The position numbers and the translations under genes were made by a program. From Opitutaceae bacterium (GTDB lineage Bacteria; Verrucomicrobiota; Verrucomicrobiae; Opitutales; Opitutaceae), in contig JAISAX010000484.1 in NCBI GenBank assembly GCA_031266495.1, positions 1-7,611 on the forward strand: a stretch of DNA of 7,611 nt. Direction: 5' to 3'. Under the pieces are notes generated by a model. It did not search any database. It was given only the letters and a program-made list of their open reading frames with translations, and was not told the origin of the DNA. Each line of letters opens with the position of its first letter. Within the stretch, counting starts at the first letter, position 1. Positions 4,639 to 7,594 of this stretch are shown piece after piece.

Positions 4639-4671
4639 GGGGACGGGGTTGGGGTTGGGGTTGGGGTTGGG
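4639..4671 (+). repeat. TTGGGG hexanucleotide repeat / G-quadruplex sequence abutting a start codon
   Basis: Six G-runs (4639-4642, 4645-4648, 4651-4654, 4657-4660, 4663-4666, 4669-4671) are separated by two bases each, TT in four cases and AC in one. This satisfies any G-quadruplex rule. On the opposite strand the CCCCAA repeat is the immediate leader of the membrane-protein gene, ending at its ATG (4638). That mRNA would therefore carry C-rich repeats instead of a Shine-Dalgarno sequence, while the template DNA strand carries the quadruplex. Copy-number change by slippage is plausible. Confidence 0.85.
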
Positions 4672-4726
4672 AGGCCGGCGTTCCCCGTATATGAATCGCA
4701 ATACCCTGCGGGAAACGCCGGCTCCC
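4669..4726 (-). other. Imperfect stem-loop in the gap between the two minus-strand genes
   Basis: GCCGGCGTT (4674-4682) pairs with AACGCCGGC (4714-4722). The stem extends inward by CCC/GGG (4684-4686 with 4710-4712) after one mismatch, and outward by GGGA/TCCC (4669-4672 with 4723-4726) after a bulged G at 4673. The loop is 23 bases. There is no T-run on either side, so it is not a classical intrinsic terminator. It lies directly next to the G-run repeat and shares the last G-run with it, so the two structures compete. It could be a leader element of the membrane-protein gene. Confidence 0.55.
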
Positions 4727-4815
4727 CCCGGACGGAGCGAGGTTTTGCAGGGAGCGGTGTTACTTGAATCCCTATTGTTGTCGCTCCTGAAACCTCTGTC
4801 TGTTTTCCGTCCGGG
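4727..4815 (-). other. Nested stem-loop 6 bp past the PEP-CTERM stop codon
   Basis: Three nested helices can be drawn: CCCGGACGGA (4727-4736) with TCCGTCCGGG (4806-4815), 10 perfect pairs; GAGGTTT (4739-4745) with AAACCTC (4790-4796); and GGAGCG (4751-4756) with CGCTCC (4782-4787). The apical loop is about 25 bases. On the minus strand it begins just past the PEP-CTERM stop (4822-4824) and would form the 3' end of that message. No U-tract follows, so it may be a processing or stability element, a factor-dependent terminator or a structured RNA. Confidence 0.6.
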
Positions 4816-4821
4816 AAAGGT

Positions 4822-5700
4822 TCATTCACGGCGCCGCCTCCCGGTCAGCGCCCATGCGAGGATCGCCAGGCCGGCAAACGCCGCGAACGCCGCTGGCTCG
4901 GGCACGCTCGATATCTTCACCCGCAGATCATCGAACTCCTCCGATACGTACACCTCTGCGCGCGACGCGCTGTCGCCTGTCACCGTTATCGCCGCAAATA
5001 GCCCGTCCGGAGTTATGCCGCTAAATGATTCCGCGCTGAGAAGCGAATAATCGCCGTCCGGAACGTTATTCAGGTTCAGGTTTATCTTCCCGGTAAAGTC
5101 GGTGAAAGTCAGTGTGCTTCCTGCCCCGAGATAGCCGGGGCCGAGGCTACCCGATTCGGAATTTCCGTTGAAATTCAGGATCGTGTTGCCGCTCAGTCCA
5201 ATCGTGCCCCAATGGATGTACAGGGACGATCCCGCATCTATATTGACAGTGGTGTCTGTCAGAAGAATCCCGCCGCTTTCCATCGTCAGTTTATTGCCAG
5301 AATCAGAACCTTCGACATAGAGGGTGGCATTGGTCATCGTCAGTGTCCCGGTAATAACCTGACCATCGTTATCGGCATGCATATTTATGAGGCGGAGGCC
5401 TGAATTGTTGGTAACGGAAAAGTTGGCATACGTCTGCATCCCCTCCACTCCGTTAATCGTGACGGTCGCTCCGTTAGCTATCTGCCCATCCGTTTGGGAG
5501 CTATTTGGGGTCCACTTGGACGTCTCGTTCCAGTTGCCGTCACCCGGGTCATTCCATGCGGAAGTCCCGGCGACCAGAGAGCAAGCCAGCAGGGCGGCGG
5601 CGGCGGCGGCGGCGAGGACCGGCATCGGGCGCAGGCCCGGAGAACCATGCCGTTGCGTGTGTGTTGTCTTTTCTTTCCGTAACGAGGGTATGATTGTCAT
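4822..5700 (-). CDS. PEP-CTERM sorted surface/exported protein
   Basis: This 292-residue secreted protein carries a C-terminal PEP-CTERM sorting signal. The signal comprises the VPEP motif (266-269), a hydrophobic helix (270-286) and the RRRRE tail (288-292). In this system an exosortase recognises and processes the tail at the membrane. The N-terminus has a basic region, then a hydrophobic Ala-rich core (about 28-45), a probable signal peptidase site after GTSA (45-48) and a mature start WNDPGDGNWNETSKW, typical of beta-strand-repeat PEP-CTERM proteins. The middle (about 75-200) is rich in N, G, T and S with alternating hydrophobics, suggesting a beta-helix. LLAC (37-40) loosely resembles a lipobox, a weaker alternative. 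ATG 5700 gives a 25-residue lead before a second possible start, Met26 at 5625. The C-terminal anchor supports an intact gene. It is less GC-biased than its neighbours. No exosortase gene lies in the window, and its ligand or role cannot be told. Confidence 0.9.
   Translation of the reverse strand: MTIIPSLRKEKTTHTQRHGSPGLRPMPVLAAAAAAALLACSLVAGTSAWNDPGDGNWNETSKWTPNSSQTDGQIANGATVTINGVEGMQTYANFSVTNNSGLRLINMHADNDGQVITGTLTMTNATLYVEGSDSGNKLTMESGGILLTDTTVNIDAGSSLYIHWGTIGLSGNTILNFNGNSESGSLGPGYLGAGSTLTFTDFTGKINLNLNNVPDGDYSLLSAESFSGITPDGLFAAITVTGDSASRAEVYVSEEFDDLRVKISSVPEPAAFAAFAGLAILAWALTGRRRRE
5593..5613 (-). repeat. Seven-copy GCC trinucleotide repeat in the signal-peptide core
   Basis: Seven uninterrupted GGC units on the + strand (GCC on the coding strand) encode the Ala run in the hydrophobic core of the PEP-CTERM protein's signal peptide. 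Unit gain or loss would keep the frame and change the core length by one Ala per step. Confidence 0.8.
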
Positions 5701-5705
5701 GAGTG

Positions 5706-6125
5706 CTACGTTTCCGTGAAATGTAACCGGTTCAACAAAAAAACTGATGTGGATACGTAAAAAACCTCATGCTGGACAAAAAATGACGCGCCGGAAACCT
5801 TCCCCGTACCCTGAATCCATAAACCTTTTTCACTCGAAAGGTTCCCCGCGCCCGGATTCTTGAAATCTTGCGCACTTGAATAGCTCCCCACCCCCCCAAT
5901 CCATAAACCTCGTTCACTCGAAAAGCTCCCTTCGTCCGGATTCCACAAACCTCGTTCATTCGAAAGGTTCCCCGCGCCCGGATTCTTGAAATCCCGCGCA
6001 CTTGAATAGCTCCCCGCGCCCCGAATCCATAAACCTCGTTCACTCGAAAAGCTCCCCTCGCCCAAAAACAGCCTTGAAAAGAAGTAAGAACATGCAACCT
6101 CAACCCGGATATCCGCCGCCCGCAT
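5706..6125 (-). CDS. Doubtful ORF reading a 14-residue repeat protein through the 42-bp array
   Basis: On the minus strand a frame runs from ATG 6125 to a TAG at 5706-5708 (139 codons). Because 42 is divisible by 3, it reads the array as six 14-residue repeats such as GEGSFSSERGLWIR and GAGSYSSARDFKNP, with a GxGxxS framework. Its stop lies 5 bp before the PEP-CTERM ATG, a spacing typical of coupled genes. Several points argue against it. The codons (TTA, CGA, TCA, AGT) are unlike those of neighbouring genes, no ribosome binding site is evident, the last 30 residues look random, a second minus-strand frame is also open through the array, and substitutions between copies are not mainly synonymous. 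I list it only as a candidate. Confidence 0.15.
   Translation of the reverse strand: MRAADIRVEVACSYFFSRLFLGEGSFSSERGLWIRGAGSYSSARDFKNPGAGNLSNERGLWNPDEGSFSSERGLWIGGVGSYSSAQDFKNPGAGNLSSEKGLWIQGTGKVSGASFFVQHEVFYVSTSVFLLNRLHFTET
5813..6064. repeat. Tandem array of six 42-bp units in a two-by-126-bp higher-order arrangement
   Basis: The units are 5813-5854, 5855-5896, 5897-5938, 5939-5980, 5981-6022 and 6023-6064, each exactly 42 bp. By my alignment unit 1 matches unit 4 at 37 of 42 positions, 2 matches 5 at 38 and 3 matches 6 at 38. Neighbouring units match less well (1 against 3 about 34; unit 2 is the most different). The array is therefore a duplicated 126-bp block. A degenerate copy may precede it (about 5771-5812). 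Units share a TTCACTCGAA-like core followed by a C-rich stretch. Unit 1 contains a 7-bp hairpin (AACCTTT/AAAGGTT). There is no variable spacer, so it is not CRISPR. Confidence 0.9.
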
Positions 6126-6142
6126 CCGGATTTTTCCCGATA

Positions 6143-6158
6143 CCAACCAACCAACCAA
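6143..6158 (+). repeat. CCAA x4 repeat in the leader of the DUF6261-like gene
   Basis: Four perfect CCAA units end 12 bp before the ATG at 6171, followed by CACCCATACCCG. This occupies the ribosome-binding position with a C/A-rich, G-free sequence, so initiation does not appear to depend on a Shine-Dalgarno sequence. Confidence 0.7.
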
Positions 6159-6170
6159 CACCCATACCCG

Positions 6171-6947
6171 ATGAAAATAAAGACCCTCCGGTCCAACCTG
6201 CTCCGCAACGAAGAATTGTTCCAGTTCCAGACGGAGCTGCTCGCCCAGCTCCGCAACAACGCCACCGTGAAGGATGGCCTCGGCCCCGTCCTCTATGGCG
6301 AGTGCAATCGCCTGTTCGCCGCCGCCGACGCCGCCCTCCAGGCCGGCCGCAAGAGCGCCTACACCGAAGTCCTCGCCGAACAGGACGCCCTCCGCGACCG
6401 GCACTACGGCAGCTTGCGCGAATCCCTCGAACTGGGCACCCGCCACTTCGACTCCGCCAAACACGCCCCGGCCAAACGCCTCCTCGTCGTGCTCGACAAA
6501 TACAGGCGCGACATCCGCACCGGCTCCTACGACGAGGAGACCGCCGCCCTCACCAACCTCGTCGAGGACCTGCAAGCCGCCCCCGCCTCCGACGACATCA
6601 ACACCCTCGGCCTCACCGGCTGGGTCTCCGCGCTCGACTCCGCCAACAAACAATTCGAGGCCTCCTTGCGCGCCCGCGACGCCGAAACCGCCGCCCAGTC
6701 CTCCGCCATCCCCGAAACCATGACCTCCCTGCGTCACGGCATAATCACGAACCTCCGGGATGTGTTTGAAAAGATCAACGCCCTCGCCCTCACCGCCACC
6801 GACCCGGTCGCCCTCACCGCAATAAACGCCTTCATCGTCCTCTTGAATACCTTGATCGACCGCTACGATCGCGAAGCCGCCCACCACCACCACCGGCACC
6901 CCTCCCCACCCACCCCGCCCCTCCCGCCGACCCCGCCCAATCAATGA
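6171..6947 (+). CDS. DUF6261-like helical protein of unknown function with His/Pro-rich tail
   Basis: This 258-residue protein begins MKIKTLRSNLLRNEELFQFQ. The N-terminal LRNEE-x-FQF pattern and the all-helical composition resemble the uncharacterised DUF6261 family, known from Bacteroidota and found by inference in Verrucomicrobiota. No function is established, and I rely on recall of the pattern. Residues 1-235 are rich in A, L, E, R and D with amphipathic spacing and no signal peptide or membrane helix, so it is probably cytosolic. Motifs to note are YGECNRLF (42-49), KRLLVVLDKYRRDIRTGSYDEETA (102-125) and the conserved-looking end INAFIVLLNTLIDRYDREAA (218-237). After that come HHHHRH (238-243) and a Pro-rich tail (to 258), which look added. 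Codons are strongly C-ending, supporting a real gene and making the long opposite-strand frame a shadow. It converges on the four-helix-bundle gene, with 74 bp between the stops. Confidence 0.8.
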   Translation: MKIKTLRSNLLRNEELFQFQTELLAQLRNNATVKDGLGPVLYGECNRLFAAADAALQAGRKSAYTEVLAEQDALRDRHYGSLRESLELGTRHFDSAKHAPAKRLLVVLDKYRRDIRTGSYDEETAALTNLVEDLQAAPASDDINTLGLTGWVSALDSANKQFEASLRARDAETAAQSSAIPETMTSLRHGIITNLRDVFEKINALALTATDPVALTAINAFIVLLNTLIDRYDREAAHHHHRHPSPPTPPLPPTPPNQ

Positions 6948-6961
6948 AACCTCTGGCCGCA

Positions 6962-7025
6962 GGCGGGCGGGAGACGGCGGGCGGGAGGTGGGAGGTATGG
7001 GAGGTATGGGAGTTGTGGGAGTTAT
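6962..7025 (+). repeat. G-rich direct repeats between convergent genes (12-bp pair and 9-bp array)
   Basis: GGCGGGCGGGAG occurs at 6962-6973 and again at 6977-6988. A 9-bp array follows: a partial GGGAGGT (6983-6989), GGGAGGTAT (6990-6998), GGGAGGTAT (6999-7007), GGGAGTTGT (7008-7016) and GGGAGTTAT (7017-7025). The last unit overlaps the TAA stop (7022-7024) of the minus-strand gene. The many GGG runs can form a G-quadruplex. GGCGGGAGG (6980-6988) can also pair with CCTCCCGCC (6920-6928) in the C-rich 3' end of the DUF6261-like gene, a possible shared 3'-end structure. No T-run is present. Confidence 0.8.
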
Positions 7026-7594
7026 GGTTTGGGGGGACGGGAACGGTAATCGAGGCGGGCGCGGGTCATGCGTTCGCGGAGTCCGCCGTTTTTGAGGAAA
7101 TCTTTTTCGAGGTAGCGGAGCTGGCGGTCGATGAGGTAGTTGGTCTGGTGGATGAGACAGATGACAATGTTGGCCAGGATCGCGGGCGGACGGGTTTGCA
7201 CAAAGGAGCGGTAGAGTTCGTAGGTCTGCGGGGTACGTCTCCCGAGTTTGCGGACATAGAGGGCTTCCCGGGAGTTCTTTTCCCAGACAGGGAGATCGTG
7301 CGTGGTGAGGTAGTCGCGGTAATCGTCGAGAAGTTCTTCGAGGCTGGCTCGGGCTACATTGGTGAGCTTGATCTCGGTTTCCTTGGAGGTGACGGCCGCC
7401 TTGCTCCCTTCAAGCAGGTTTTTCTTCCCGGAGCGCGCCGCCTGCACCATCTGGTCGATCGTGCGGTCGCCTCTGGCAAAGTATTTGTGGCAAAACCGGT
7501 AGGTGATGCCGTAAACGATCTCCGCCTTCTGGAACGAGAGTAGCCGGGTGTAGTCGCCGTGGCGAGGGAGGAAGCCTTCGGGTTCGGATGGCAT
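7022..7594 (-). CDS. Four-helix-bundle protein of the 'suffix' type (23S IVS / Avd-like superfamily)
   Basis: This 190-residue protein matches the pattern of four-helix-bundle proteins related to those encoded in 23S rRNA intervening sequences and to Avd of diversity-generating retroelements. The core motif is RTIDQMVQAARSGKKNLLEG (44-63), preceded by FQKAEIVYGITYRFCHKYF (21-39) and followed by SKETEIKLTNVARASLEELL (70-89) and DYRDYL (91-96). The longer C-terminal part with VWEKNS (103-108), ANIVICLIHQTNYLIDRQL (141-159) and a basic end is what I recall as the 'suffix' domain variant. The biological role of stand-alone copies is not established. By analogy with Avd it may form an oligomeric barrel that binds nucleic acid. 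The start at ATG 7594 follows a TCTCACCCACCC leader with no Shine-Dalgarno sequence; the window ends 17 bp upstream. No reverse transcriptase or rRNA gene is nearby. Confidence 0.85.
   Translation of the reverse strand: MPSEPEGFLPRHGDYTRLLSFQKAEIVYGITYRFCHKYFARGDRTIDQMVQAARSGKKNLLEGSKAAVTSKETEIKLTNVARASLEELLDDYRDYLTTHDLPVWEKNSREALYVRKLGRRTPQTYELYRSFVQTRPPAILANIVICLIHQTNYLIDRQLRYLEKDFLKNGGLRERMTRARLDYRSRPPKP

Follow-up and report, generated by a model that had tools for sequence, protein, structure and literature searches.

A tandem array of 42-bp units stands upstream of a DUF6261 gene in a 7,611-nucleotide stretch of DNA from an Opitutaceae bacterium (the window), and arrays with nearly the same step precede most of the DUF6261 genes that we surveyed in Bacteroidota. 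This association of DUF6261 with arrays is well supported. The upstream arrays share a step of ~41.5 bases but have unrelated sequences, and thus point to a module made of a protein and its own DNA sites. We suggest, with a probability of roughly 0.55, that the array and the downstream DUF6261 gene form one two-part module in which DUF6261 acts on its cognate array as DNA.

The array of the window lies in a 470-bp gap between a PEP/MYXO-CTERM-like gene on the minus strand and the DUF6261 gene on the plus strand (Table 1). A sequence-only reading of this DNA had described six 42-bp units in two ABC blocks, and we reproduced this structure: the two 126-bp blocks are identical at 113/126 positions in that reader's register (5813) and at 112/126 in ours (5816). 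The ABCABC order and the match between blocks bear out its proposal that a block was duplicated after the units had diverged. Tandem Repeats Finder reported a period of 42 (6.3 copies, 5801-6063) and a period of 126 (1.9 copies, 91% matches, 5816-6060), and lags of 42, 84, 126, and 168 gave more than 50% self-matching inside the array region. A degenerate core pattern drawn from the units, with up to three mismatches allowed, matched exactly six times in the window and not once in 200 dinucleotide shuffles of it. The 42-mer at 5774-5815, tested as a full extra unit, did not score as one. As the same reading had held, the array is not CRISPR: its units run head to tail in ABCABC blocks and are not identical repeats split by unique spacers.

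Table 1. Features of the array region in the window
Feature	Position	Strand	Remarks
Six-unit array (42 bp per unit; A B C A B C)	5816..6067	.	
Unit starts (A B C A B C)	5816, 5858, 5900, 5942, 5984, 6026		
Degenerate partial unit on the PEP-CTERM side of the array	5801..5815	.	Tandem Repeats Finder extends the array to 5801
Spacer from the array to the DUF6261 start codon	6068..6170	+	Holds an ACCA run at 6142-6159
DUF6261 gene, 258 aa, predicted all-helical	6171..6947	+	PF19775, E 1.3e-30
PEP/MYXO-CTERM-like protein, divergent neighbor	4822..5700	-	NCBIfam matches below cut-off, no Pfam match

We also checked whether the array is the coding part of a longer gene, and its non-coding status stands. 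Stops interrupt all plus frames and one minus frame; the other two minus frames are open throughout. Codon differences between the blocks in these two open frames were 0 synonymous/12 non-synonymous and 3 synonymous/7 non-synonymous, so there is no synonymous excess, and a search for protein homologs of the two frames across the array found none. A protein-coding repeat was ruled out on these two grounds. No exact match of the degenerate pattern was found in other genome contigs or in viral contigs, nor was there a blastn match of the unit in phages or plasmids, and no Rfam family was found in the window. The window unit was thus found nowhere else in these searches; the term "dispersed repeat family", offered as one guess by the sequence-only reading, holds in a special sense for relatives in other genomes. 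An inverted 42-mer just downstream of the PEP-CTERM-like gene (4726-4767, minus strand) matches unit C at 28/42 positions, which is marginal relative to shuffles and unremarkable next to random 42-mers drawn from the window. Other short tandem repeats in the window are GGGGTT x4.5 at 4645-4671, GGC x7.3 at 5593-5614 (within the PEP-CTERM-like gene, near its start), and TGGGAGGTA x4.3 at 6989-7027.

The gene to the right of the array, previously called DUF6261-like, is a true DUF6261 member: its product scored 106.8 bits against a gathering cut-off of 27 in a Pfam scan, with PF19775 as the sole match. The seven closest other DUF6261 proteins are 54-56% identical to it, and five of these seven come from Opitutaceae records. 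An AlphaFold2 model (pLDDT 90.3, pTM 0.58) is all-helical with a 60-residue helix, and its structural matches are generic helical bundles only; the model also aligns with an S23-family bundle (2rld). DUF6261 proteins are mildly acidic (median pI 5.7, 105 proteins). Searches of Pfam, PADLOC, NCBIfam, and PHROGs returned no recognized DNA-binding family, and PADLOC, PHROGs, and NCBIfam returned no defense, phage, or NCBI family that fits DUF6261. Given this generic fold, the mild acidity, and the lack of a fitting family, we infer the function of DUF6261 from its array. Many paralogs in genome G772 (L096-L115) terminate in an extended linker rich in P/K/G together with a common C-terminal motif of the type NPDIxLPEE, and DUF6261 proteins of other genomes carry other short terminal motifs, for example RPGIL or SPDEI. 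We judged the PEP/MYXO-CTERM-like neighbor to be outside the module. Convergent to the DUF6261 gene, the minus strand at 7022-7594 encodes a protein that matches TIGR04258, the "four helix bundle suffix" domain, at 86.5 bits (vs. 40).

To survey upstream arrays, we collected loci around DUF6261 matches in Bacteroidota. Tandem Repeats Finder detected an array of period 41-42 located 5' of the gene in 16 of the first 26 loci, some of which overlap and one of which is not a true DUF6261; these 16 arrays often also showed a period of 82-84, and their sequences are unrelated to that of the window. We then had a lag test set of 109 distinct DUF6261 genes, the window's being the only case outside Bacteroidota, in which 700-bp flanks were scored for self-matches at lags 15-130 against 20 local shuffles. 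A flank was called significant at a score of at least 20 and at least 3 above the best shuffle. Six genes had too short an upstream stretch; the other 103, of which 102 are from Bacteroidota and one is the window's, had 250 bp or more. A significant tandem array was present upstream of 87 of these 103 genes, a count in which the loci are related and hence not independent. The best lag was 40-42, 82-84, or 126 in 85 of the 87 arrays: 40 (2), 41 (28), 42 (42), 82-84 (11), and 126 (2), with single cases at 16 and 29. A higher-order pattern, with a best lag of 82-84 or 126, is frequent in this class (13 of the 87 loci, the window included); the window's own array appeared at lags 42/84/126, from -377 to -107 relative to the DUF6261 start codon. 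Downstream stretches were significant in 10/109 cases, with scattered lags. Among the 16 genes without a significant upstream array, one lies directly behind another DUF6261 gene, two are fragments, and seven (one a fragment) peak at 41 or 42 below the threshold when lags up to 60 are considered. In 81 upstream arrays the fundamental lag was 40-42 and significant, and 68 of them were left at <70% unit identity; the median gap from array to start codon was 91 bp (81 arrays). The sequence-only reading was right in part: it missed that the array is linked to the DUF6261 gene and that conservation lies in the 41-42-bp period, not in the sequence.

A finished replicon of Prevotella nigrescens (NZ_CP082843) provides an annotated example, in which a 41-bp array (3.6 copies, 93%) immediately precedes a DUF6261 gene. 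The start given in the annotation falls inside the array, and an in-frame ATG at L274:5977 is the likelier start. Around this locus, the replicon also has a 120-bp tandem array (L274 5190-5572) and two genes of equal length (3,669 bp; L274 659-4327 and 6823-10491).

How often do such arrays occur away from DUF6261? In genome G309, 400 kb without any of its five DUF6261 genes held one 40-42 array. Another 400 kb from G071/G816/G346 held two, a lag-42 array that falls within a long ORF and a lag-83 array, and 200 kb of the P. nigrescens replicon held no array of lag 40-42 or 82-84 and one weak lag-126 match. G772, with at least 28 DUF6261 matches (28 of 61 first-look candidates scored), behaved differently: 58 of 80 arrays in 400 kb were at lag 40-42 or 83-84, approximately one per 7 kb. 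These arrays lie mostly beside ordinary genes, with six recognized DUF6261 genes in that DNA, so in G772 the link between arrays and DUF6261 is an enrichment. We also sampled first contigs within the same family. The 40-42-bp kind was absent from 20 genomes without DUF6261 (0 arrays in 302 kb), appeared once in 10 one-copy genomes (105 kb), and appeared nine times in 10 many-copy genomes (149 kb), in a comparison that ignores kinship and uses 40 contigs, five of them masked (no GC) and some others short. Arrays of other periods occurred at 2.7, 5.7, and 6.0 per 100 kb, respectively. Arrays of period 21-23 bp (two helical turns), seen in samples L176-L215 and in L277, L279, and L280, occur in genomes with DUF6261 and in some without (G695, G719, G725); four 22-bp arrays lie in the 200 kb of the P. 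nigrescens replicon.

These counts bear on whether the array is an ordinary minisatellite, i.e., the product of slippage in a non-coding stretch with DUF6261 as a bystander. Such an origin would account for units that vary, for block duplications, and for the arrays of other periods in these genomes. It does not account for the confinement of 85/87 arrays to 40-42 bp or multiples, for their upstream-only position, or for the rarity of these arrays in random DNA of low-copy genomes and their absence from the sampled genomes without DUF6261. We consider this explanation, already disfavored, to be highly improbable.

To relate solo arrays to those beside DUF6261 genes, we used 65 G772 arrays, 48 from random pieces (a 13% sample; a few of these themselves precede DUF6261 genes) and the other 17 from loci with DUF6261. 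For nine of these 17, the unit recurs among the 48 random-piece arrays at 0.67-0.98 identity (0.98, 0.90, 0.80, 0.78, 0.69, 0.67, and, for three near-identical copies, 0.93), whereas a control of shuffled pairs (n=528) gave at most one pair at 0.55-0.60 and none higher. In whole-genome searches of G772, one paralog's unit was found at eight places, with DUF6261 at one of the six whose flanks were checked, and a second unit at eight places, all checked, with DUF6261 at three. The single stray array in the G309 sample shares 0.85 identity with the array of one paralog, compared with 0.34-0.39 for those of the other four. A search of this genome placed that paralog's unit at three sites, with a further weak match; the loci retrieved around its three other places showed no DUF6261. 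In a Mantel test over 80 arrays, units were more alike the more alike their proteins were (r 0.52, p 0.001). Protein pairs below 50% identity have a mean unit identity of 0.43-0.46, with 20 of 3,059 pairs reaching 0.6, and pairs above 80% identity have a mean of 0.79.

Three G772 loci (L104, L105, and L106) are 95-97% identical over 1.42-1.45 kb, and the shared stretch has a sharp edge at the array and runs to the stop codon, with unrelated flanks on either side. Joint movement of array and gene is suggested by this one set of G772 copies. Solo arrays with this unit have only the array part in common, and two of five have the same array edge. One could read these data as a selfish element, a cassette of array plus DUF6261 that spreads within genomes and leaves solo arrays as its decayed or non-autonomous copies, in the style of RAYT/REPIN; the presence of at least 29 DUF6261 matches in the genome with most would fit. 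We hold this to be quite unlikely as the main account, in that the duplicates are one recent set, no transposase or nuclease family was matched in Pfam, PADLOC, NCBIfam, or PHROGs, and cassette copying and DNA binding are in any case compatible with each other.

The mean fundamental period of the arrays is 41.56 bp (81 arrays), or 4 x 10.39, four turns of B-DNA. Dyad symmetry reached p<0.05 in 33 of 68 non-redundant arrays (p<0.005 in 14), with 35 of 68 missing p<0.05, and it is absent from the window's own array (p 0.7). We aligned one clade of 39 units from 12 loci, which we had chosen for their resemblance to a seed unit. Its 38-bp dyad aligns without gaps, and one pair flips between GC (18) and CG (17). 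Over the 37 distinct units, Watson-Crick cells were in modest excess (399 vs. 378 expected), whereas G.U cells (55 vs. 54 expected) and A.C cells (68 vs. 68 expected) were not; the lack of a G.U excess speaks for DNA over RNA. We searched for promoters with a -7 box motif that we take to be the Bacteroidota type. On the sense strand, the box lies before the array in 20/80 loci and between array and gene in 19/80; the antisense counts are 7/80 and 2/80. A two-box promoter pattern was seen six times in the interval from array to gene and nowhere ahead of the array. With the -7 box on both sides, the array is not always in the leader, and it may lie on either side of the promoter. For 17 of 81 arrays the distance to the start codon is at most 60 nt, and these are, for that reason, probably within the leader.

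Those leader arrays, together with the 20 loci that have a -7 box before the array, would also suit a module that works at the RNA level, with a transcribed array whose repeated hairpins are bound or cut by DUF6261, as in type III toxin-antitoxin systems. The layout of array then gene is indeed that of type III loci (PMC4627078, in the part consulted), and many units fold better than their shuffles (mean z -1.28 on the sense strand, 81 arrays). However, antisense folding is nearly equal (mean z -1.00), with the sense strand folding better in 47/81 arrays, so the strands do not differ significantly (p 0.098). G.U pairs are not favored over A.C, the two-box pattern and the -7 boxes of 19 loci lie between array and gene, solo arrays occur without a gene, and the Pfam scan gave no match to a ToxN-like family. 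An RNA-level module is hence unlikely in our view.

We favor the two-part module that acts at the DNA level. DUF6261 would recognize the double-stranded DNA of its cognate unit, and dimers would probably bind cooperatively on a single face of the helix; the protein would probably control its own gene and probably also act at solo arrays of the same type. Among the three guesses of the sequence-only reading, which also included a VNTR that tunes expression, "multi-site operator" comes nearest to this outcome. Arrays may grow by duplicating one to three units, which would yield the 126-bp pattern of the window. The 41-42-bp period may instead reflect the origin of the arrays rather than binding. 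A broader proposal, to which we give somewhat less than even odds, is that DUF6261 and its 41-42-bp arrays represent a novel type of system, made of cognate proteins and satellites, that is genome-wide in some Bacteroidota. Each protein lineage would have its own fast-evolving unit, read on one face at every fourth turn; solo arrays would be sites of action in trans, and array-plus-gene cassettes would multiply within genomes to dozens of orthogonal pairs.

PF19775, an uncharacterized family, thereby gains a functional lead, and a class of bacterial intergenic satellites is explained by a rule of geometry, not of sequence. Should these pairs prove specific and orthogonal, one genome would contain dozens of protein-DNA pairs independent of each other, and one could test how the period of a satellite persists through the turnover of its sequence. 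Such pairs would further illustrate the spread of a multi-copy gene family, together with its repeats, in Bacteroidota.

We compared the module with the nearest known systems; a search of the DUF6261 and tandem-repeat literature, with limited coverage of subscription journals and preprints, found no published description of DUF6261-linked arrays. Operator and iteron arrays place repeated sites upstream of the binding protein's own gene, as in the DUF6261 layout. They differ in that DUF6261 belongs to no known DNA-binding or replication-initiator family and its arrays also lie far from the gene. RAYT-REPIN systems, which also resemble the DUF6261 arrays, pair a protein gene with palindromic repeats dispersed in one genome. 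Unlike these, DUF6261 arrays run head to tail with a 41-42-bp step and differ between paralogs, and DUF6261 had no HUH-type transposase match in Pfam, PADLOC, NCBIfam, or PHROGs. The BrickBuilt MITE of Porphyromonas gingivalis is likewise an intergenic tandem array dispersed in the genome of a member of the Bacteroidota; it has a 23-nt unit, a leader, a tail, and small inverted-repeat ends, and the consulted part of its description mentions no partner protein (PMC4596501). Type III toxin-antitoxin loci (ToxIN, CptIN, TenpIN) have tandem repeats upstream of one protein gene that differ greatly between loci and are processed to RNAs of 36 nt (ToxI) or 45 nt (CptI), according to the sections consulted (PMC4627078). 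DUF6261 arrays, in contrast, lack an RNA-strand signature and also occur solo, and their protein is helical without a ToxN-family match. TIGR-Tas systems likewise combine a tandem array with a single adjacent protein gene, and they share arrays of stem-loops in some clades and a symmetric protein dimer, the last a proposed feature of DUF6261, but as far as the consulted text goes they have two 8-12-nt repeats, two 9-nt spacers, 36-nt guide RNAs, and a Nop-domain protein (PMC12045711). DUF6261 had no Nop match in the Pfam scan, and its list of structural matches does not speak against such a domain. As a comparison with TIGR-Tas spacers, whole-unit identity has a median of 0.73, and a 9-nt stretch at 0.45 or below occurs in 22 of 69 arrays. 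Because none of the last four kinds is matched in all its defining features, in our judgement the array and its DUF6261 gene, with a proposed mechanism of binding, constitute a new kind of module that is real and not local.
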